Assembly (NCBI RefSeq): GCF_900113935.1
Contig: NZ_FORF01000007.1
Coordinates: 62,001-126,000 of the forward strand
DNA: 64,000 nucleotides
Reading direction: 5' to 3'
Origin: Aquamicrobium aerolatum DSM 21857
Lineage (GTDB): Bacteria; Pseudomonadota; Alphaproteobacteria; Rhizobiales; Rhizobiaceae
The translations under genes were made by a program, and so were the position numbers. Each line of letters begins with the position of its first letter. The stretch's first letter is position 1. The notes under the pieces were generated by a model, which was given only the letters and a program-made list of their open reading frames with translations, searched no databases and was not told the origin of the DNA. Positions 53,370 to 64,000 of the stretch are shown in pieces.

Positions 53370-54551
53370 TCAGACGGACTTGGCTTCCTGCTTGATCCGG
53401 GGCGGAAGACGGCGTTGAGCCGGGGTTGCGGTCGCGGCGCCGGCCCGCGCGGAAGCCTCGTTGGCGCGGCGGACGATGCCGCGATACCACTCGATATAGT
53501 AGGCCAGCGCGAACTGCGCGATCACGCCGGTGACAACGATGGTGATGTCGCCAAAGAAGCCGATCTCATGCGTCATGCGGAATGCCTGCGCGGCCATTGA
53601 AAGAATCGTGCCGACCACGAACACCGGCAGCGCGTGACGGCCCATGACCGCCAGCGGATTGCTTGCCGAAAGGCGGGCCAGATTGGACACTGCCGGCAGC
53701 GCCACGATCAGATAGGCAAGCGACAGGACGTGGGCGAGGCGTGGCAGCGACAGATAGGTCTTGTCGAAGCCGGTGAGCACCGATGGCAGGCCCATCGACA
53801 CGTCGATCCCCCACAGCGGCACCTTGACCCAGGCCAGCGACAGCGCGAGGTAGAACCCGGCGGCGCCGACGAGCCAACGATTGACTGGCAGGCTGCCGCC
53901 ACGGCGCACATGCACCATCACGGCAAGGCCGATCACGAACAGGAACTGCCAGGACAGCGGATTGAGGAACCACACCCCGTTGTTGGGGAAGTTGGGCGGA
54001 CCGATGCGCCACAGGCCTGCAGCAAGCCAGATCGCGCCCGAAACGCCGACCATTGCGCTCAGACTGTAGCGGCTGATCAGCAAGAGGGCGGGCAGCAGAA
54101 GCAGGACGACGGCGTACATCGACAGGATGTTGTTGTAACCAAGCTGGTGGCCGAATGTCACGATTCCGATCAGGGCCTCGGGCGTCATCGCCATCACCGG
54201 CCCGATATTGATCTTGCCGAGCAGGTCCGGCGCTGCAAACTGAAGCGCAAAGAAGGAAAACAAAGCCAGCGTCGCCATCGTCGTGCCAAGCTGGGCAATG
54301 TAGAGCACGCCAGCGCGCCGCCACACCTTAAGGGTCGTGGCCAATGCGCCGGCACCATGGAACTTCAGCCCATAGGCGAATGCGGCCGACACGCCGGAGA
54401 TGAGAACGAAAGCCTCAGCTGCGTCCGAGAAGCCGAAATTCTTGGTCGTGAACTGCTCGAACGGGTTGCCCGGCACATGGTTGACGAAGATCGTGACCAG
54501 GGCGATGGCCCTGATGACGTCAATCCTGGTGTCTCGAACAGTCTGGGTCAT
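53370..54551 (-). CDS. opgC: OpgC-family membrane acyltransferase (periplasmic glucan modifier)
   Basis: A 393-residue protein with about ten membrane segments. The opening RIDVIRAIALVTIFVNHVPG with its conserved NHVPG, and FSDAAEAFVLISGVSAAFAY, are OpgC signatures. OpgC adds succinyl groups to osmoregulated periplasmic glucans; Brucella Cgm is the equivalent for cyclic beta-1,2-glucans. ndvA and ndvB within 5 kb support that role here. The basic cytoplasmic tail (RLPPRIKQEAKSV) is unremarkable. Confidence 0.88.
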   Translation of the reverse strand: MTQTVRDTRIDVIRAIALVTIFVNHVPGNPFEQFTTKNFGFSDAAEAFVLISGVSAAFAYGLKFHGAGALATTLKVWRRAGVLYIAQLGTTMATLALFSFFALQFAAPDLLGKINIGPVMAMTPEALIGIVTFGHQLGYNNILSMYAVVLLLLPALLLISRYSLSAMVGVSGAIWLAAGLWRIGPPNFPNNGVWFLNPLSWQFLFVIGLAVMVHVRRGGSLPVNRWLVGAAGFYLALSLAWVKVPLWGIDVSMGLPSVLTGFDKTYLSLPRLAHVLSLAYLIVALPAVSNLARLSASNPLAVMGRHALPVFVVGTILSMAAQAFRMTHEIGFFGDITIVVTGVIAQFALAYYIEWYRGIVRRANEASARAGAATATPAQRRLPPRIKQEAKSV

Positions 54552-54723
54552 TTTTCGTCATTCTCGGATGGTCACGTATCGTAAAGGCCTGGGCGCCCTT
54601 TCGGTTCCGTGCAGCTACCATGCTGAAGCCATTGTAAGGCTTCACAAATTGTAGCTTTTGATGACGATGCACAATTTCGAGTGCTTGGCATCTGACCGAC
54701 TGATGCCGCGCCATCCATTGCTT

Positions 54724-54740
54724 TTTAGAATAATTCCAAA
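54724..54740 (+). promoter_or_regulatory. ICE-like Irr-binding site upstream of the bfd-bfr group
   Basis: TTTAGAATAATTCCAAA matches the Irr iron control element (TTTAGAA-N3-TTCTAAA) with one mismatch and nearly equals the site before nfu. It covers a possible -10 (TAGAAT) and lies 26 bases before the first small reading frame. Irr is known to repress bacterioferritin genes in low iron. The other ~190 bases of this divergent region from opgC show nothing clear. Confidence 0.65.
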
Positions 54741-54766
54741 GAGTTAATTCCTTGAAGGTGATTGTC

Positions 54767-54871
54767 ATGTTTGAATTGACAAACCCCTTCGCGACCGTAT
54801 TTAACGAGAGGGCACCGACTGACGGTGCGTCCTTTGATGGCTGGGCCTTGAACCCTTTCGATTGGAGGTAA
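54767..54871 (+). CDS. Tiny 34-residue reading frame after the ICE site
   Basis: Encodes 34 residues (MFELTNPFATVFNERAPTDG then a W-A-L-N-P-F-D-W-R end). GAAGGTG lies about seven bases before its ATG. Its last codons contain GGAGG, which serves as ribosome site of the next gene, whose ATG follows this stop codon directly. That tight coupling and the position just after an Irr site argue it is translated, either as a small protein or as a coupling leader. No family recognised. Confidence 0.45.
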   Translation: MFELTNPFATVFNERAPTDGASFDGWALNPFDWR

Positions 54872-55102
54872 ATGGTGGTTGATGATGCTGGGCGACGGTC
54901 GGTCGCCAGGAACTTCCCCTCAAAACGGCTCGCACGCGCGGTCGCTTCCGTATCGCCGCTGGCGTTTACCGCGCTTCTGACAGCTGCGGTGTTTGTCCTG
55001 CCTGCTCCTGGAGAGATGGGGTCGGCGCATGCGTCGGCCACGGGGAAGGCGCTGTCGTTCGACATCGTACAGGATGGTCGGACGGGTTCTGTCCAACGTT
55101 AA
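54872..55102 (+). CDS. Small exported protein of unknown function in the bfd-bfr group
   Basis: A 76-residue protein: a basic N-terminus (residues 1-22), a hydrophobic segment (~26-47, AFTALLTAAVFVLPAP) and a possible signal peptidase site after AHA at ~53, leaving a mature part of only ~23 residues that ends GRTGSVQR. It could be a small periplasmic protein, a single-pass membrane protein, or the remnant of a longer one. GGAGG four bases upstream supports translation. bfd starts 50 bases later. No family recognised. Confidence 0.5.
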   Translation: MVVDDAGRRSVARNFPSKRLARAVASVSPLAFTALLTAAVFVLPAPGEMGSAHASATGKALSFDIVQDGRTGSVQR

Positions 55103-55152
55103 GTGCATAGCCCGGTCGCCAACGCCCGGCGACCAAGCCAAAGAGTGTTTCG

Positions 55153-55464
55153 ATGCTGGTTTGTCACTGCAACCTGATTACTCAGAAAGAAATCGAGAGC
55201 ACCATCGTGGAGCTTCTCGATCAGGATGCGTGGCAGCTCATCGTGCCCGCAAAGGTGTATCATACGCTGAAAAAGCGAGGCCGTTGTTGCGGCTGCTTTC
55301 CAAATGTGGTGGAAACGATCATTCGGGTGACCGAAGACTATCACCGGCGACTGGGTGCCGGCGAGGCAGAGATCTTACCATTTTTGGATCGCGTGCGTGG
55401 ATTGCGCAGCCAATTCGGGAGTATACACCATGAAGGGCGAAGAACGGATTATCGAGCGGCTTAA
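55153..55464 (+). CDS. bfd: Bacterioferritin-associated ferredoxin
   Basis: A 103-residue [2Fe-2S] protein that reduces and releases iron stored in bacterioferritin. The cluster ligands are Cys4 and Cys6 (MLVCHC) and Cys45 and Cys48 (RCCGCFPNV), the BFD arrangement. It ends inside the start of bfr, overlapping it by 35 bases in another frame, which implies coupled expression of store and release proteins. Confidence 0.93.
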
Positions 55465-55915
55465 CGAAGCCCTGTTTCTGGAGCTTGGCGCGGTCAACCA
55501 GTATTGGTTGCACTATCGCCTTCTCGACGACTGGGGCTACAAGAAGCTCGCCAACAAGGAGCGTGCCGAATCCATCGAGGAGATGCAGCACGCCGACAAG
55601 ATCATCGAACGCATCATTTTCCTTGAAGGTCACCCCAACCTTCAGAAGGTGGGTCCGCTGCGGATCGGGCAGAATGTCCGTGAAGTTCTGGAAGCAGACC
55701 TGGCCGGCGAATATGACGCGCGCGCTTCCTACAAGAAGTCGCGCGAGATCTGCAACGAACTCGGCGATTACGTGACGCAGAAGCTGTTCGAAGAACTGCT
55801 CGCAGACGAGGAAGGCCATATCGACTTCCTCGAAACGCAGCTCGACCTGATGAACAAGCTCGGCGAAGAGAAGTACGGCCTGCTCAACGCAACTCCGGCT
55901 GACGAAGCAGAGTAA
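55430..55915 (+). CDS. bfr: Bacterioferritin
   Basis: Iron-storage protein forming a 24-subunit heme-containing shell. 161 residues from the ATG at 55430 (GGGAG upstream). All diiron ligands are present: Glu18, Glu51, His54, Glu94, Glu127 and His130, as is the heme ligand Met52, so both ferroxidase and heme sites are intact. It ends the putative Irr-controlled group and is followed by a strong terminator. Confidence 0.97.
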
Positions 55916-55937: not shown

Positions 55938-55975
55938 AAACGGCCCGTCAGCATTGCGCTGGCGGGCCGTTTGCC
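55938..55975. terminator. Bidirectional terminator between bfr and ndvA
   Basis: AAACGGCCCG (55938-55947) pairs perfectly with CGGGCCGTTT (55963-55972), with an A-run at the left (AAAAA) giving T-rich tails both ways. It separates the two converging genes. Confidence 0.8.
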
Positions 55976-55999: not shown

Positions 56000-57790
56000 T
56001 CAGGCGGCTTCTGGCGACAGCTCAGGCGCGTCGACCAGTGGGACAGCCTTGAGGCGATCTTTCTGATCCAGCAGGCCACCGGCGCGCAGCAGCGAGGCAA
56101 AGCGGCCCTTGTCGCGCATGGCCAGTTCCTGGAAACCACCCAGCTCCACGATCCGGCCGCGTTCCATGAAGATGACGATGTCAGCATCGGAAACCGTCGA
56201 CAGGCGGTGGGCGATGACAAAGGTGGTGCGGTTGGCACGCAGTTTGTCGATCGCTTCCTTGACCCTTAGTTCGGTCTCCACGTCGAGCGCGCTGGTCGCT
56301 TCATCCAGCACAAGGATCGGCGCGTCCTTCAGCACTGCGCGGGCAATCGCGATGCGCTGGCGTTCGCCGCCTGAGAGCTGGCCGCCACGCTCGCCGACCA
56401 CCGTGTCATAGCCGTCGGTCTTGGCGAGGATGAAGTCCTGCGCAGCCGCGGCGGTGGCGGCGGCATGCACTTCGTCATAGTGGGCTTCTTCGCGTCCAAG
56501 GCGAATGTTTGCCTCGATGGTACGATTGAGCAGGCCGGCATCCTGAAACACCGTAGCGATTTGGTCGCGCAGCGACTTGCGTGTGACGGTGCGCGTGTCG
56601 ATGCCATCGACGCGGATGCTGCCGCATTTGGGATCATAGACCCGCTGCAGGAGGTTGATCAGTGTCGTCTTGCCAGCGCCGGTCGGGCCGACGATGGCGA
56701 CGGTCTTGCCTGCGGGGATATGGAAGGAGATGTCTTCGACACCGACGCCTGAATCGGGGAAATGGAAGCTGACATTTTCAAACGTGACGTCGCCGCGCAG
56801 GCGGCCCACTGGACGTGCGTCCGAAGACTCGGTGCGCTCGGCCACTGCATCTTCAAGCGCATAGAACGGCTCCAGCTTTGCCCGTGCCTCGAACACCTGG
56901 TTGACGAAGCCGGTGATCTGGTCGAGACGACCGATCAGCAGCGTGGCAAAGCCGGTGAAGGCGACGATATCGCCAATGCGCAAATGGCCGTTCTGCACTA
57001 AGAGCGCGCCGATGATCAGGACAATCATCATCGACAGCGTTGCCGCCAGACGATGCAGCGCGGTTGCCAGCGCCCACCAGTTCAGAACCGGAAACTGCGC
57101 GTCGATCAGGTCGGCGGTATAGCGGCGCAACGCTTCGGTTTCCTGCGCCAGACGTCCGTAGCTCTGCAGCACCGAGACGTTGCCGATGGAATCGCTGACA
57201 TGCGAGAACACACGGTGATAATGCTGTTCGACGGCAGCCTGACCTTCCTTGGTCCGGGCCATCACCGCGCGGCTGATCGAGAGATAGCAGACGCCAAGGC
57301 ACAGCAAGACGCCAGCCATGCGCCAGTCCATCGCCAGCGCGGTCGGGATCAGCAGCATCAGCGCGATCGCGGTCGACAGATGCTGGCGCATGAATTCCAG
57401 CCATAGCGAAAACAGCGTTTCAACCGCGCGCAGCAGCGTATGCAGCGACTGCGAGGTGCCATGGCGATGGTGCCATGACAACGGCATCGTGATGACCTTC
57501 TCGAAGGAATCGGACAGCACTTCGGTGCGGCGGCGATGGGCGAGGCGATCTGCCCCGCGCGCCACCAGAACCACGGCAACGATATTGAAAATGCCGAGCG
57601 CGGCCCACAGCCCGACTTCCCACACCACGTCGCCTTGCGCGGCGATGGCCTGAATGATCCGCCCGAACAGAACCGGCTCTGCGATCATGGCGACAGCAAG
57701 AGCGACATTGGCCGAGCAGAGCAGAATCGTACGGCGTCGTTCGACCGCAAGATACTCCAGAGCTCTCCAATAGATTTGTAGAAGGGACAC
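56000..57790 (-). CDS. ndvA: Cyclic beta-1,2-glucan ABC exporter NdvA
   Basis: A 596-residue half-transporter, membrane domain fused to ATPase, that exports cyclic beta-1,2-glucan to the periplasm (ChvA in Agrobacterium, Cgt in Brucella). Six membrane segments (~20-310) precede the ATP-binding domain with Walker A GPTGAGKTT, signature LSGGERQRIA and Walker B ILVLDEATSALD. MSLLQIYWRALEYLAVERRR is typical of NdvA. It lies directly after ndvB on the same strand, 188 bases away; exporters of this size work as homodimers. Confidence 0.95.
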   Translation of the reverse strand: MSLLQIYWRALEYLAVERRRTILLCSANVALAVAMIAEPVLFGRIIQAIAAQGDVVWEVGLWAALGIFNIVAVVLVARGADRLAHRRRTEVLSDSFEKVITMPLSWHHRHGTSQSLHTLLRAVETLFSLWLEFMRQHLSTAIALMLLIPTALAMDWRMAGVLLCLGVCYLSISRAVMARTKEGQAAVEQHYHRVFSHVSDSIGNVSVLQSYGRLAQETEALRRYTADLIDAQFPVLNWWALATALHRLAATLSMMIVLIIGALLVQNGHLRIGDIVAFTGFATLLIGRLDQITGFVNQVFEARAKLEPFYALEDAVAERTESSDARPVGRLRGDVTFENVSFHFPDSGVGVEDISFHIPAGKTVAIVGPTGAGKTTLINLLQRVYDPKCGSIRVDGIDTRTVTRKSLRDQIATVFQDAGLLNRTIEANIRLGREEAHYDEVHAAATAAAAQDFILAKTDGYDTVVGERGGQLSGGERQRIAIARAVLKDAPILVLDEATSALDVETELRVKEAIDKLRANRTTFVIAHRLSTVSDADIVIFMERGRIVELGGFQELAMRDKGRFASLLRAGGLLDQKDRLKAVPLVDAPELSPEAA

Positions 57791-57963: not shown

Positions 57964-57993
57964 GTGACGGCGCCCATCCTAGGGCGTCGTCAC
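57964..57993 (-). terminator. Strong hairpin spanning the ndvB stop codon
   Basis: GTGACGGCGCCC (57964-57975) pairs with GGGCGTCGTCAC (57982-57993) over 12 positions with one mismatch, around a six-base loop that contains the ndvB stop TAG. No T-run follows directly. It may stabilise the ndvB mRNA end or limit read-through to ndvA. Confidence 0.5.
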
Positions 57994-60900
57994 AACGACC
58001 TCATAAGTGCCGCTATGTTGCAGTGCAACATGATTTTGGGCGGCGCCATCGACCTCAAGCGCTTGGGTCTGGCCGCGCCGAACCCGGATGTTGTAGTCCG
58101 CTTCGCCGATTTTCAGGTGCGCTGCAAAATCGTTCCAGGACGATGGCAGGGCAGGTTTGAACGTCAGCATGTCGGCTTCGCGGCGCAGTCCGAGAATGTT
58201 CTCGACCGCAACACGGTAGAGCCAGCCAGCCGAACCCGTGTACCAGGTCCAGCCGCCGCGCCCGCCACGCTCGCTTTCGGAATAGACGTCTGCGGCGACC
58301 ACATATGGCTCGACCCGGTAGCGGTCGGCCGACTCGCGATCGACCGCGTGACTGACGGGATTGAGCATGGAGAAGAGCTCCCATGCCTCGTCCGCGCGTT
58401 TGCTTTCCGCCAGCGCTGCGACGAGCCAGGTGGCGGCGTGGGTGTACTGGCCACCATTTTCGCGCACGCCGGGCGGGTAGCTCTTGATGTAGCCGGGCTC
58501 CTTGGGCGTTTTTTCGAAAGGCGGCGTGAACAGCCGTGCGATCCGCAGATCCTTGTCGACGAGGGTCTCCATCACCTTGTCGAGCGCCTGTTGCGCGCGC
58601 TTCTCATCGCCAGCTCCCGACAGCACGGCCCATGATTGTGCAATGGAATCGATGCGGCACTCCTCTGATGAGGCGGAACCGAGCGGCGTGCCGTCGTCGA
58701 ATGTGCCGCGGCGATACCATTCGCCGTCCCAGCCTGCGCTTTCGAGCGCCTTCTTGAGCTGCTTGGCATGGTTCATCCACGCGAGCGCACGGTCGAAGTC
58801 GCTCCTGTCTTTGGCGATGGTGGAGAAATCCCGCAGCGCCTTCAGAAGGAACCAGCCGAGCCAGACGCTGGTGCCGCGTCCTGCCTCGCCCACGCGGTTC
58901 ATGCCGTCGTTCCAGTCGCCGCCAAGGATCAGCGGCAGGCCGTTGGCTCCGGTACGTTTGATCGCCAGATCAAGCGCGCGCGCGCAATGTTCGTAGAGCG
59001 ATACTTTTTCGGGCAGGATTTCAGGAGTGAAGAAAGCGTCGTGCTCGCCATCCTTCAACTGGGGCCCCTGAATGAAGGCGATGACCTCGTCGAGAATCGA
59101 CGTGTCGCCAGTGACCTTGACATAGTGATGTGTGCCATAGGCAAGCCACACCACATCATCGGAGATGATCGTGCGTACGCCGGCGCCGGTCCCCGGCAGC
59201 CACCAATGCTGCACGTCGCCTTCGGGAAACTGGCGCGAGGCGGCGTTGATGATCTGCGCGCGGGCCAGCGACGGATCGTGCAGCAAGAGCGCCAGCGTGT
59301 CCTGCAATTGATCGCGGAAGCCGTAGGCGCCACTGGCCTGATAGAAGGCGGAGCGAGCGCGGATGCGGCAGGCATAGGCCTGATAGGGCAGCCAGACATT
59401 GACCATCGCGTTGAATGCCGGGTCGGGGGTCTGAACCTGCAACGCGCTGGCGAAACGGTCCCATCGTTCCTTGTTGGCACGCAGGCGGGTGTTGAAGTCC
59501 CGTGCGAAGTGCTCGCCGACAAGCTTTCCGATGTCCTCCTGCGCGCCGGCATCGCCAAGCAGCAGATGCAGCTCGGACCTGGCTCCAGGTTCCAGTGTCA
59601 CGTCGACGGCGATGGCGGCGCATGGATCGCGTCCGGCATCCACCGTGTTGGACAAAGGCAGCCCTCGGCTGACGATGCGCGGGGCAACGCTTGCGCCGCC
59701 GGCCCCGAGAAATTCGGCCCGGTCACAGGTGTAGCTCTGCTCGCCGGCATCGCAGGCAAGGAATGCGACCCGGTCGCCAAATTCGAGATGGTAGGGATTG
59801 CGCGCGGTCAACGCTCCGGTCGCCGGTTCGCGGCCCGGCACGATATAGGGCGCGGATTTGGCGCGATTGTTGCCCAGCACCCATTCCGCATAGGCGTAGA
59901 TGCGCAACCTGACCGTGCGGCCGGTGTCATTGGTCAGGCGTAGTCGCTGGACCTTGATCGCTACATCGGGATCCACCAGCTGGATCAGTTCCGTTGTCAG
60001 CCCGCCGCTTTGCGCAGTGAAGGTCGATGCGCCGCGCTCATGGCGGGCTTCATAGACGATGCCGGACGAGCGGAACACACAGGCGAGCGGCGAGAATGTC
60101 TCTCCGGATTCCAGATCGTGAATGTAGATTGCCTCGCCGGGCCGGTTGGTCACCGGATCGTTCGACCATGGCGTCAGCTGATAGTCGCGGCTGTTTCGGC
60201 TCCACGTCCATGATGCGCCCTCCGAAGAGGTATGGAACCCGAATGTTTCGTTGGCGATGACATTGACCCATGGATGCGGTGTCACGGTATCGCCGGACAG
60301 GCGCACGACATATTTGCGTCCTTCGTCGGAAAAGCCGCCATAGCCATTCCAGAACGACAAATCATCGCCGTGCGCGTTGACCGCGGGGGCGGACCAGGAC
60401 GACTGCGGCTGCGCGCTGAGGCGTGCCGGCAACGGTTCGGCCAGGAAGGTGGCGTTTTCGGCGCGTTCGATCTGCGCCAGGATGGGGCCGTTGCGGGTGT
60501 GCATCACGACATGGGCGGCACCGATCAGCGTCTGGTAGGACGCATCGTCCATCAGGTCGCGGCGTACCGCGAAGATGTGCTGACGCGGCCCCAGTTCGCT
60601 GCCGCGCAGGCGGGCATTGTCACAGAGCAGTTCGATCGACTGCTGCAAGTCCTGCACATAGGACGCGGCCTGCTCGTTGACGATCACCAGATCTGCCATC
60701 AGGCCGTGGGCGCGCAGATATTCCTGCATTCGCAATGCCGACGCAACGATTGGAAGATCGGCGACGTCGCTGATGCGCAAGGCGAAGATCGGGAAGTCGC
60801 CGGAGATCGCCATCGGCCACAAGGCGGATTGGCGTCCCAGACCGGACGCGATGGTCTCGGCGGGCGCGCGCAGTGCCGGATCGGAAAACAGCAGATAGCG

Positions 60901-63900
60901 GGCCAGCTTCTGAACCACGGCCGCTTCCCACAGGGTGATGCCGACATGGCGGGTCTGAACCTGCGAGCGGGTCCAGGCCAGTGTTTCCTGCCGCTCATAG
61001 CTTTCGCTGTGAACGAAGCGGCGGGTGGCCTCCTCGACATCGGCCCGGTTGGCGGCGACCAGTGTCCAGAAGGTAAGCGTTACCTTCTTTCTTGCCGGAA
61101 CCCGCACCTTGGCGCGCAACGCCATGATCGGGTCGAGGGTGAAGCCGCGCGAGCCGGTGAGTTGCGCGCCGGGCTCGAAGGCGGCGGCATTGGCGATGGA
61201 GCGTCCGCGCCCGATGAATGCGCGCCGGTCCGTCTCGGCCTGAACGTCGCGCGTGACCCCGGCTGTCGACGTCACGAAATGCGCCAGCGCGATGGTCGGA
61301 TCGCCACTGCTGCGCTGGCGGCGTTCCGCAAAAATGGTTGCGCCGTCGTCGCCGCTGATGTCGGTTTCGACGAACATCTTCGAGAAAGCCGGATGGGCGT
61401 TGTCGGCGGCCTCGTAGTTCAGCGCCAGTTCGGCAAAAGACGTCACCTCGATCTGGCGGTCCTTGTCGCCATCGTTCCAGATGGTGATGTGGCGCGCCTC
61501 GCCATTCGCCTCGGAGACGACGATGCATTCGACCTGTGAGCGCAAGGTGCCGACCGTCTTTGAGAAGGTCGCCTTGTCGTCGCAGAAGAAGGCGCGGCTG
61601 GTCTCGCCCGGTGCTCGTTTTGGCTCGGCTGTCGCCGACCACCAGTCGCCTGTGTCGGGCTCGGAGATGAACAGGAAGGTGCCGCTGCGGTTTTCGGTGG
61701 CGTCGGCATTCCAGCGCGTCACAGCAGTCTGGTCAGCGCGGCTGTATCCGGTGCCGGTGGCCGTGACCATGACGTTGTAGTGGCCGTTCGACATGATGTT
61801 GGTGGCGATCGGGCTTTCGAGCGGGTCGAGGATCAGGCGCGAGTCGGGCCGGTCCTCCACGTCCTTTGGCTGCAGCCGGTCGCCGGTTTCGGCGCGCAGC
61901 GGCATCGCCGGCACTTCACGCGGCGCTTTCTCCTGCAGCAGCAATTCTGCCGCTTCGATCACCGGATCGGAGTGAAAGCGGTCGCGCATGCGACCTTCGA
62001 AGATCGCGTTGGCGACAGCGACAATCGACATGCCATGGTGGTGCGCCATGTAGTTGTAGACGACCGCACCTTTTTTCCCGTCCGGCACGCGGGCAGGGGT
62101 GTAATCGACAGCATCGTGGAAGCCATAGCGTCCGAGCGCGCCCTCGCGCTGGAGGCGCCGCAGATTTGCCACCGCTTCCGCGGGACGGAACTGCGCCGCC
62201 AGCAGGCTGGCATAGGGCGCAATCACCGTGTTCTGCGCCAGCCCGCGCTTGAGCCCGAGCCCAGGTACGCCGAAATTCGTGTACTGGTAGGTCATGTCGC
62301 GGTCGCGGGCATGGTAAGCCGCTTCGGAAATGCCCCACGGCACATTTTTCTCGCGGCCATAGGCGATCTGGCGCTGGATGATCAGATTGCTGGTCTGGTT
62401 GAGGATGCCTCCCAGCGGCTCCTTCATCACCAGTGGTGGCATCAGATATTCGAACATCGAGCCGGACCACGAGACCAGCGCGCCGCCGAAGCCGATCAGT
62501 GTCACCGGACGGCCAAGGCGGAACCAGTGCTCGGTTGGCAAGTCGCCCTTGGCGATGCCGAACAGACTTGTCAGGCGGGCTTCCGAAGCCAGCAGATCGT
62601 AACAGCTTTCATCGAGCTGGTTTTCCGACACGCGATAGCCGATCGACAAAAGCTTGCGCTCCTCACGCAAGAGGAACGAGAAATCCATCTCGAACGCGAA
62701 TTTGCGTGCCCGCTGGCTGAGCGTGGTCATGCGTTCGCGCAGGTTTGCACCGCTTTCAACATGCGAATCCGCCAGATGCGCTTCGCAGACCGCTTCGATC
62801 TTGCGCGCCCACAAGGCAAGCTGATCGCTGATTGGCGAGCGAATTTCCTCATGCAGCGCGGTGGCGAGCTTGGTGATGTCACGCGCCGCGACGGTGAGGT
62901 TTATCGTGCGGATCGCGGCCGTTTCCGGCTCGCTCATGATCGTGTTGACGGTGCGGTGCATCCCTTCGATCCGTTCGACCAGACGGCTGCGCAGCGGGCG
63001 CAGTGAACGGCGGTCGTCGGGAAGGGCTGCCAGCGTTTCCTGCACGATGGTCGTGGCGTCGAGAATGCCGTTATAGTCGCCCTGAAGATAAGCGGCGGGG
63101 GCTTCGGCCCATTTGCCACAGGCAGCGGCAACCGCGATCAGATGGCCCGCAAGGTTGCCACTGTCGACCGCTGAGACGTAGAGCGGATGGAGCGGACGAA
63201 GTGTCCGCGTTTCGTACCAATTGTACAGATGGCCGCGATAGCGCTCCATCTTCTCGAGCGTGCCCAGCGTCTGTTCAAGTCGCTGAAGCGTTTCCGACAA
63301 GGACAGCCAGCCGAAGTCGCGTGCGCTGATCACCGACAGCATGTAGACGCCGACATTTGTGGGCGAGGTGCGGGCGGCGATCACCGGAACCGGCACTTCC
63401 TGAAAATTGTCCGGCGGGAGCATGTTGTGCTCCTCGGTCACGAATGTCTCGAAATAGAGCCAGGCGCGCCGCGCGATGGTGCGCAGCGCGACCGCGTCTT
63501 CGGCGCGCATCTCCAGCCGGTCTTCCGTTTCGGCGGAGCGGCTGATGAGCCATGCAAAGGCTGGCGATCCTGCCCAGAACAGAGCGAAACAGACCGCAAC
63601 GAAGGTGCCGGTGGTATCGGTCATCAGCGGTATGAGCAGACCGGCAGCGGCGACCGGCAGAACGCCCCACATGGTGCGGTAGTGTACGCCAAGACCGTCA
63701 CCACCACGCGCTGCCTGCGAAGCGGTGCGCCATTCCAGGAGGTTCTGGCGGCTGACGAAGAGCCGGTAAAGCGTACGCACGATGGCATCGCCCGTAGACC
63801 ATGCCTGATGCGCAATCAGCACCATCTTGGTCGCTACCTGGGCGCTGGCGAAGGCGAAGTCGCGTGCAAACGCTGCCATGTGGTTCTTCAGCGTCGCTTC

Positions 63901-64000
63901 CGGATCACCCGGAAGGATCGAGTTGACGATGCCGAAGGTAAGGGACAGGAAAAGGCTCAGCACCAGCAGCGCCTGCCATTGCGCGGCCTGGGTAAAGGGT
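57979..64000 (-). CDS. ndvB: Cyclic beta-1,2-glucan synthase NdvB (C-terminal ~2,000 residues)
   Basis: The frame is open to the right edge, so the start lies outside; the family is about 2,800 residues long, leaving roughly 800 (including the GT84 synthase domain) unseen. NdvB starts, extends and cyclises beta-1,2-glucan chains in the inner membrane. Visible are two membrane segments near the visible N-terminal end, a large middle region with EEHNMLPPDNFQEVPVPVIA, two sugar-binding repeats, and the C-terminal GH94-type phosphorylase domain, which controls chain length, with its catalytic aspartate in LILGGDWNDGMNRVGEAG (near 58,910). No break is seen in the ~6 kb. ndvA follows. Confidence 0.96.
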   Translation of the reverse strand, partial: PFTQAAQWQALLVLSLFLSLTFGIVNSILPGDPEATLKNHMAAFARDFAFASAQVATKMVLIAHQAWSTGDAIVRTLYRLFVSRQNLLEWRTASQAARGGDGLGVHYRTMWGVLPVAAAGLLIPLMTDTTGTFVAVCFALFWAGSPAFAWLISRSAETEDRLEMRAEDAVALRTIARRAWLYFETFVTEEHNMLPPDNFQEVPVPVIAARTSPTNVGVYMLSVISARDFGWLSLSETLQRLEQTLGTLEKMERYRGHLYNWYETRTLRPLHPLYVSAVDSGNLAGHLIAVAAACGKWAEAPAAYLQGDYNGILDATTIVQETLAALPDDRRSLRPLRSRLVERIEGMHRTVNTIMSEPETAAIRTINLTVAARDITKLATALHEEIRSPISDQLALWARKIEAVCEAHLADSHVESGANLRERMTTLSQRARKFAFEMDFSFLLREERKLLSIGYRVSENQLDESCYDLLASEARLTSLFGIAKGDLPTEHWFRLGRPVTLIGFGGALVSWSGSMFEYLMPPLVMKEPLGGILNQTSNLIIQRQIAYGREKNVPWGISEAAYHARDRDMTYQYTNFGVPGLGLKRGLAQNTVIAPYASLLAAQFRPAEAVANLRRLQREGALGRYGFHDAVDYTPARVPDGKKGAVVYNYMAHHHGMSIVAVANAIFEGRMRDRFHSDPVIEAAELLLQEKAPREVPAMPLRAETGDRLQPKDVEDRPDSRLILDPLESPIATNIMSNGHYNVMVTATGTGYSRADQTAVTRWNADATENRSGTFLFISEPDTGDWWSATAEPKRAPGETSRAFFCDDKATFSKTVGTLRSQVECIVVSEANGEARHITIWNDGDKDRQIEVTSFAELALNYEAADNAHPAFSKMFVETDISGDDGATIFAERRQRSSGDPTIALAHFVTSTAGVTRDVQAETDRRAFIGRGRSIANAAAFEPGAQLTGSRGFTLDPIMALRAKVRVPARKKVTLTFWTLVAANRADVEEATRRFVHSESYERQETLAWTRSQVQTRHVGITLWEAAVVQKLARYLLFSDPALRAPAETIASGLGRQSALWPMAISGDFPIFALRISDVADLPIVASALRMQEYLRAHGLMADLVIVNEQAASYVQDLQQSIELLCDNARLRGSELGPRQHIFAVRRDLMDDASYQTLIGAAHVVMHTRNGPILAQIERAENATFLAEPLPARLSAQPQSSWSAPAVNAHGDDLSFWNGYGGFSDEGRKYVVRLSGDTVTPHPWVNVIANETFGFHTSSEGASWTWSRNSRDYQLTPWSNDPVTNRPGEAIYIHDLESGETFSPLACVFRSSGIVYEARHERGASTFTAQSGGLTTELIQLVDPDVAIKVQRLRLTNDTGRTVRLRIYAYAEWVLGNNRAKSAPYIVPGREPATGALTARNPYHLEFGDRVAFLACDAGEQSYTCDRAEFLGAGGASVAPRIVSRGLPLSNTVDAGRDPCAAIAVDVTLEPGARSELHLLLGDAGAQEDIGKLVGEHFARDFNTRLRANKERWDRFASALQVQTPDPAFNAMVNVWLPYQAYACRIRARSAFYQASGAYGFRDQLQDTLALLLHDPSLARAQIINAASRQFPEGDVQHWWLPGTGAGVRTIISDDVVWLAYGTHHYVKVTGDTSILDEVIAFIQGPQLKDGEHDAFFTPEILPEKVSLYEHCARALDLAIKRTGANGLPLILGGDWNDGMNRVGEAGRGTSVWLGWFLLKALRDFSTIAKDRSDFDRALAWMNHAKQLKKALESAGWDGEWYRRGTFDDGTPLGSASSEECRIDSIAQSWAVLSGAGDEKRAQQALDKVMETLVDKDLRIARLFTPPFEKTPKEPGYIKSYPPGVRENGGQYTHAATWLVAALAESKRADEAWELFSMLNPVSHAVDRESADRYRVEPYVVAADVYSESERGGRGGWTWYTGSAGWLYRVAVENILGLRREADMLTFKPALPSSWNDFAAHLKIGEADYNIRVRRGQTQALEVDGAAQNHVALQHSGTYEVVVTTP

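Follow-up and report, generated by a model that had tools for sequence, protein, structure and literature searches.

In animals, the ferritin and transferrin-receptor mRNAs carry the IRE, which has a CAGUGN loop and a bulged C five pairs below it on the 5' side, and which is bound by IRP/aconitase. RNA thermometers such as fourU and ROSE occlude the Shine-Dalgarno sequence, and in RyhB-type small RNA regulons post-transcriptional control extends over a whole iron regulon. Iron control in the Alphaproteobacteria has been explained mainly by transcription factors (Irr, RirA, Fur/Mur and IscR).

Within the window (i.e. the whole 64,000-nucleotide stretch of DNA that was analysed), an iron operon ending in bfd and bfr is preceded by a 38-nt hairpin, which is well supported as a conserved RNA element predicted to pair the Shine-Dalgarno sequence. 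By analogy, its anatomy may work like that of the animal IRE without being one. In both, a short hairpin has one bulged base and an apical loop that is strongly conserved, is common to the mRNAs of several iron genes and, in 5' leaders, is placed where it would block translation; the IRE loop and bulge themselves were not found in the element, as its loop is CCUUGAA (7 nt) rather than CAGUGN and its bulge lies on the 3' side, and it differs further in being bacterial, in covering the Shine-Dalgarno sequence and in having no known binding protein. Like the RNA thermometers, it holds the ribosome site in an imperfect hairpin with wobble pairs, but it has a conserved loop and neck, iron-linked genes and no Rfam match. 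Post-transcriptional control over a whole iron regulon (here proposed) is shared with the RyhB-type regulons, whereas the conserved part lies in this case in the target mRNAs. In the open-access literature that was searched, no description of the element was recognised.

The iron operon and its two short reading frames

The coordinates and the plus-strand order given in the earlier note (ICE-like motif, 34-codon frame, 76-codon frame, bfd, bfr) were confirmed, together with the GGAGG inside the end of the 34-codon frame, the ATG directly behind its stop and the overlap of bfd with bfr, which amounts to 35 nt (Table 1). The reading of the group as an iron operon with an Irr-type, ICE-like site and with bfd-bfr at its end is also supported. 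Bfr was identified with the NCBIfam bfr model (3e-57) and Bfd by a weak match to Pfam Fer2_BFD (19.1 bits vs. a cut-off of 26). We compared the window's genome (G000) with seven more genomes of its genus (n = 8): the bfd match lies ahead of bfr in all eight, and the dN/dS of bfd is ~0.09-0.24 over the 28 pairs. The strong terminator that had been claimed behind bfr corresponds to a hairpin of -30.1 kcal/mol (z -5.7), absent from the list of the terminator scanner. Around bfd-bfr the window holds an OpgC-type gene (53370-54551), a ChvA-type glucan exporter (56000-57790) and a very large ORF (57979-63963), and the OpgC-type frame stands beside the element, on the opposite strand, in 8/8 genomes of the genus.

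Table 1. Features of the operon and its leader (positions within the window)
Feature	Position	Strand	Remark
ICE-like (Irr box type) palindrome TTTAGAATAATTCCAAA	54724-54740	+	1/12 mismatch to TTAGAAnnnTTCTAA
34-codon frame	54767-54871	+	chance ORF spanning the promoter and the RNA core; TAA 54869-54871
Predicted -35 hexamer TTGACA	54776-54781	+	inside the 34-codon frame; TTGAC here in 8/8 genus genomes
T-rich, -10-like stretch TATTTAA	54798-54804	+	placed by spacing from TTGACA; TTTAT-type sequence in several relatives
5' hairpin P1 (GCACCG/CGGTGC)	54812-54828	+	variable sequence, optional; seen in the 54810-54873 fold
Conserved 38-nt RNA core	54831-54868	+	CCUUUGAU strand, GGG-CCUUGAA-CCC hairpin, 1-nt bulge, AUUGGAGG strand
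Shine-Dalgarno GGAGG	54864-54868	+	pairs with the core 5' strand in the MFE and centroid of 54810-54873
76-codon leader ORF	54872-55102	+	ATG at 54872, directly after TAA; probable imelysin signal peptide remnant
bfd, bacterioferritin-associated ferredoxin	55153-55464	+	weak Pfam Fer2_BFD match; low dN/dS in genus
bfr, bacterioferritin	55430-55915	+	NCBIfam TIGR00754
Terminator-type hairpin	55938-55972	+	fold z -5.7

The two short frames had been taken for unrecognised tiny genes with coupled translation. Both products (34 and 76 aa) are without a recognised family, as claimed (no Pfam or NCBIfam match), yet the two-gene reading found no support, since the conserved part is an RNA structure that stands before many iron genes. 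The persistence of the 34-codon frame in relatives, by which the earlier note had itself proposed to judge it, was not observed: an ATG is present at the place of its start in five of the eight genus genomes (in frame with the rest in three, i.e. the window's own, G004 and G007), the stop after DWR is found in three (own, G003 and G007), the frame continues past DWR in five, and start and stop are kept together in only two (own and G007). Moreover, its ATG (54767) precedes by ~40 nt the transcription start that the TTGACA hexamer predicts; as it lies ahead of the hexamer itself, it is therefore upstream of any transcript start from that promoter. In a comparison with chance, the ICE-like site stood above expectation, the block at 54831-54868 stood very far above it, and the 34-codon open frame did not exceed it. 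That a 34-codon peptide is translated and coupled to the 76-codon peptide, bfd and bfr is hardly credible given a frame that spans the promoter and keeps both its ends in so few relatives, although the ATG after the stop and the GGAGG inside the frame would fit such coupling. A leader peptide read in this frame was rejected on the same counts. Judged by comparison with relatives, the 34-codon frame is not a gene; it overlies the predicted promoter and the RNA hairpin.

The 76-codon frame appears to have another history. At most of the Mesorhizobium loci seen, the element is followed in order by imelysin, bfd and bfr; imelysin is missing from this place in the window's genus, and Pfam imelysin had no match anywhere in four of the eight genus genomes (own included). 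A blastp comparison against four sequences only gave an alignment of 59 residues between the 76-aa product and the leader/signal peptide of Mesorhizobium-type imelysin (E 2e-6). A counterpart of the frame exists in all eight genomes, with a variable N-terminus and only the hydrophobic core kept (degenerate in G007); its dN/dS is ~0.25 for G002-G005 and 1.1 for G003-G007, the other 26 of the 28 pairs having a dS >1.2 or undefined. The frame is probably the decayed remnant of the signal peptide region of a lost imelysin, and we read it as still giving ribosomes a landing ORF ahead of bfd.

The 38-nt hairpin

In each of the eight genus genomes, the pattern GGGCCTTGAACCC..T.GATTGGAGG has a single match (<=3 mismatches), which lies just ahead of the next start codon. 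With a covariance model of the 41-nt core, built on these genomes, copies were then recovered from many of the order's families. When the copies are aligned by their loops, a single geometry is common to most of them: ~8 nt, 7 nt, the 7-nt loop, 8 nt ending in a one-base bulge, and AUUGGAG(G). The loop is exactly CCUUGAA in 49 of 69 distinct cores, the others being close variants (e.g., CCUUGAC, CUUUGAA, CCUUUAA), and the neck differs between copies in both length and sequence, with compensatory changes (GGG/CCC, AGG/CCU, CAGGG/CCCUG, CCAGGG/CCCUGG, AUGGGG/CCCCAU, GGCGGGG/CUUCGCU).

Covariation was assessed on the 69 distinct cores from 79 matches (10 with identical 38-mers were left out), in an alignment that favours the structure under study, having been drawn from models built on that assumed structure. 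Both-side changes were present in 11 of 15 pairs (6.6 in shuffles), compensatory cells numbered 63 (vs. 23.5) and paired cells made up 84.3% (vs. 79.1%); none of the 500 shuffles reached the observed value on any of the five measures, and every slid version of the core alignment scored lower on covariation. Covarying base pairs, one of the marks of a structured cis-regulatory RNA, were therefore observed.

The fold of 54810-54873 has the hairpin as both MFE and centroid with GGAGG paired, at a z of only -1.26; the fold of 54808-54890, which includes the start of the 76-codon frame, yields another structure (z -0.42). The pair probability of the neck exceeds 0.5 in 87 of 110 distinct cores and is 0.17 for the window's copy with 20 nt of downstream sequence. 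Given the alternative longer fold and this low value, the structure rests on covariation and not on stability. The 5' hairpin P1 is less constant: its place is taken by other self-complementary sequences in the genus genomes (as read by eye), and no hairpin of its type was seen in several distant copies (e.g., L051, L053, L059).

The same data bear on whether the block acts as DNA or as RNA. Its place just downstream of the predicted start and the near invariance of GGGCCTTGAACCC would suit an operator, that is, a transcription factor binding site downstream of the promoter; however, an operator would not be expected to show compensatory changes, to contain many G-U pairs or to keep a near-fixed register with the start codon. 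The lower stem is rich in G-U (U-G in 49 and 41 of the 69 cores at two adjacent pairs), and since such pairs make sense only as RNA, we hold an operator to be very unlikely.

As a riboswitch, the 38-nt hairpin would bind iron, heme or an iron-linked small molecule directly, and the Shine-Dalgarno sequence would be exposed or masked as a result. This would agree with the cis location at the 5' end, with the Shine-Dalgarno sequence in the stem and with the iron-linked gene set, and very small riboswitches are known. The conserved part is, however, a simple hairpin with a 7-nt loop and a 1-nt bulge; it has no junction, and no pseudoknot is possible throughout, as pairing of the loop CCUU with GAGG fails in copies with the Shine-Dalgarno sequence GGAGA (for which reason a loop-to-Shine-Dalgarno pseudoknot was rejected). 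We thus regard a riboswitch as unlikely, and favour an RNA element read by a separate factor.

Two further candidates were set aside: a four-codon mini-ORF (AUG-N-GGG-CCU-UGA) of the close copies, whose AUG or UGA is absent elsewhere (e.g., L209 GAUACC, L049 UUGCACC), and an intrinsic terminator/attenuator, for which the U-run after the hairpin is missing (by eye). Rfam 15 gave no match for the whole window at the gathering score nor for 54650-54950 at E<=10, and over 18 related loci at gathering it returned only a tRNA and a serC leader elsewhere.

Distribution and downstream genes

The hairpin was found before iron genes in many soil and plant-associated bacteria. Model R2 matched 113 of 397 genomes of the order (50 of 142 genera) at E<=0.01, leaving 284 of the 397 without a match at this threshold, and model R3, with wider training, matched 132 of 397 (55 of 142 genera) at E<=0.02. 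Within the window's own family, no R2 match was obtained in 11 listed genomes that belong to five other genera. Samples of the class, among which are the own genome and a few members of the order, gave one other genome out of 385 with R1 at E<=0.001, by a match without the CCUUGAA loop, and two others out of 289 with R2 at E<=0.1 (best 0.014). Among the matches listed, carriers include Mesorhizobium, Phyllobacterium, Ochrobactrum/Brucella species, Pseudochrobactrum, Tianweitania and Pseudaminobacter, as well as Methyloligella, Methylobrevis, Afifella, Faunimonas, Chthonobacter and Propylenella. One carrier contig (L085, JAHREI010000001.1) is titled Bacillus subtilis SK6B4 and has the core and marker spacing of Pseudochrobactrum; the assembly is probably mislabelled.

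The genes behind the element were surveyed at 152 places (150 among the R2 matches listed, the own sufB copy and one hemP copy). An iron, heme or Fe-S marker, or a linked unnamed family, lies downstream on the same strand within 2.3 kb at 151 of the 152; since these loci themselves served to define the markers, of which single examples were named afterwards by an HMM or PDB match, the count is a measure of uniformity and no blind test. The first marker is an fbpA-type Fe3+ binding protein at 59 places, the unnamed family at 41, imelysin at 20, bfd at 14, sufA at 5, a cupredoxin at 4, the heme-degrading HmuQ at 3, FeoA at 2, and a FecB-type protein, sufB and hemP at one each. FTR1 follows the cupredoxin in 4/4 places and FeoB follows FeoA in 2/2. 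The imelysin example was named by Pfam; the fbpA-type example matched Pfam solute-binding families and, as best PDB matches, ferric-ion-binding proteins (E to 7e-107), and had no NCBIfam model over the cut-off, with phosphonate and thiamine binding proteins below it.

Placement is equally regular. Within 900 nt, a marker stands downstream on the same strand at 70 of 72 testable places, upstream on the same strand at none and upstream on the other strand at two. In all 59 fbpA cases, the gene begins at a start codon 3-15 nt behind the element, and a small ORF often intervenes before imelysin, the unnamed family or bfd. A fixed place before functionally linked genes, as is typical of a structured cis-regulatory RNA, is thus what was observed. 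The own genome holds a second copy six bases before sufB, with SufC- and SufD-like frames behind; this sufB copy recurs in three more genus genomes, and other copies in the genus precede fbpA and Grx4 glutaredoxin genes. A pattern scan of the genus returned 26 rows, or 22 distinct places, 19 before iron or Fe-S genes and three not.

Two loci deserve separate mention. The sole element-like match without an iron marker behind it (L282:3001-3038, minus strand, E 6.6e-4) may be a chance hit or have another target. In L254, two back-to-back copies (2494-2531 on the minus and 2722-2759 on the plus strand, 190 nt apart) are located between divergent operons, both of which carry the unnamed family.

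This family comprises proteins of ~150-190 aa with invariant W and G residues and a CxDEC motif (CRDECLA in most), as judged from 16 aligned members (e.g., L039:832-1341, L265:1437-1949). It had no match in Pfam (two members), NCBIfam (16 members) or, as a profile, among PDB sequences. Where it comes first (41 places), imelysin, fbpA, bfd or hemP stands behind it in 25, and it is alone in 16. We consider it a candidate new iron protein.

The uniform gene set also bears on a constitutive leader, in which the hairpin would only stabilise the mRNA or lower its translation, with no switch. 5'-terminal hairpins can stabilise mRNA, and the regulation we propose is itself inferred from the element; nevertheless, the loop is far more conserved than stability needs (CCUUGAA in 49/69) and the element is confined to iron-linked genes (151/152), and we find such a leader quite improbable. 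Across the order, the element stands ahead of genes for iron uptake, iron storage/release, heme and Fe-S assembly, and its most likely role is therefore that of a shared post-transcriptional switch.

Promoter, proposed mechanism and significance

The sequence ahead of the element was assessed for 150 distinct upstream regions, each 150 nt or longer, with expectations taken from mononucleotide shuffles. Palindromes resembling the ICE motif (the consensus of which we take to be TTAGAAnnnTTCTAA), with at most 2/12 mismatches, occur in 102 of the 150 (1.7 expected), a close ICE being absent from 48. In 132 (12.4 in shuffles), TTGAC precedes the core by 25-110 nt. The distribution of gaps between ICE and TTGAC has its peak at 25-26 nt; a second group, to which the window (36) belongs, lies at 35-37 nt. 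Helical phasing of the ICE was considered and dropped: the 25-26 nt peak is real, and periodicity beyond it is not significant (p ~0.25), so that the argument for activation by Irr is one from position alone. A sigma-70 scanner had no match in the region; the -10 is putative, and the transcription start is predicted near 54810 from the spacing. An ICE-like site near the promoter, such as an Irr-regulated promoter would have, is present, and Irr is predicted to bind it.

One paper gives the ICE as the Irr site, associates ICE sites over the transcription start with repression, and states that in every species investigated up to that time Irr acts as a repressor when iron is depleted (PMC3413700). 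The same paper reports that bfd and bfr of Rhodobacter sphaeroides are induced by iron limitation (PMC3413700), which makes a bfd-bfr operon expressed at low iron plausible as far as that source goes. The loci described here resemble the Irr/ICE promoters of rhizobia in the ICE-like sites upstream of 102/150 distinct elements; they differ in that the paired ICE sites are mostly located ahead of TTGAC and not over the start, and in that the element, unlike the ICE, sits in the transcribed leader. An ICE upstream of the -35 suggests activation by Irr at low iron, the sign of this control being a prediction.

We propose that the region comprises the promoter of an iron operon together with its 5' leader. 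The TTGACA promoter would start transcription near 54810, and Irr at the upstream ICE-like site would activate it when iron is short. The mRNA would open with the 5' hairpin, followed by the 38-nt hairpin, in which, as comparison of the copies shows, the lower stem pairs the Shine-Dalgarno GGAGG with CCUUUGAU and the GGG/CCC neck presents the strongly conserved CCUUGAA loop. An iron-linked factor, likelier to be a protein or a small RNA that recognises the loop and the neck than a small ligand, would then lock or open the hairpin, and in this way set the translation of the first gene. That the element is an iron-regulon mRNA structure which occludes the ribosome site, and whose hairpin is released or locked by an iron-linked factor, is in our judgement probable; we infer the switching, iron status as the signal, the reading of loop and neck by a protein or small RNA, and the sign of the control. 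More tentatively, and with more doubt than confidence, we can picture a bacterial counterpart of the IRE/IRP system in the Hyphomicrobiales, in which one CCUUGAA hairpin, reused across the uptake, storage, heme and Fe-S genes, would be read by a single iron-sensing RNA-binding factor that would set the translation of the whole iron regulon atop Irr.

Taken at this strength, the element suggests that iron control also operates on mRNA, at a level not described so far. It also offers a sharp criterion by which iron genes may be predicted, the unnamed family beside imelysin being one case. If the proposal is true, an RNA element acting across the regulon would give iron control an additional, translational level, would provide a ready-made bait for finding its sensor, and would represent an independent evolution of IRE-like logic in bacteria.
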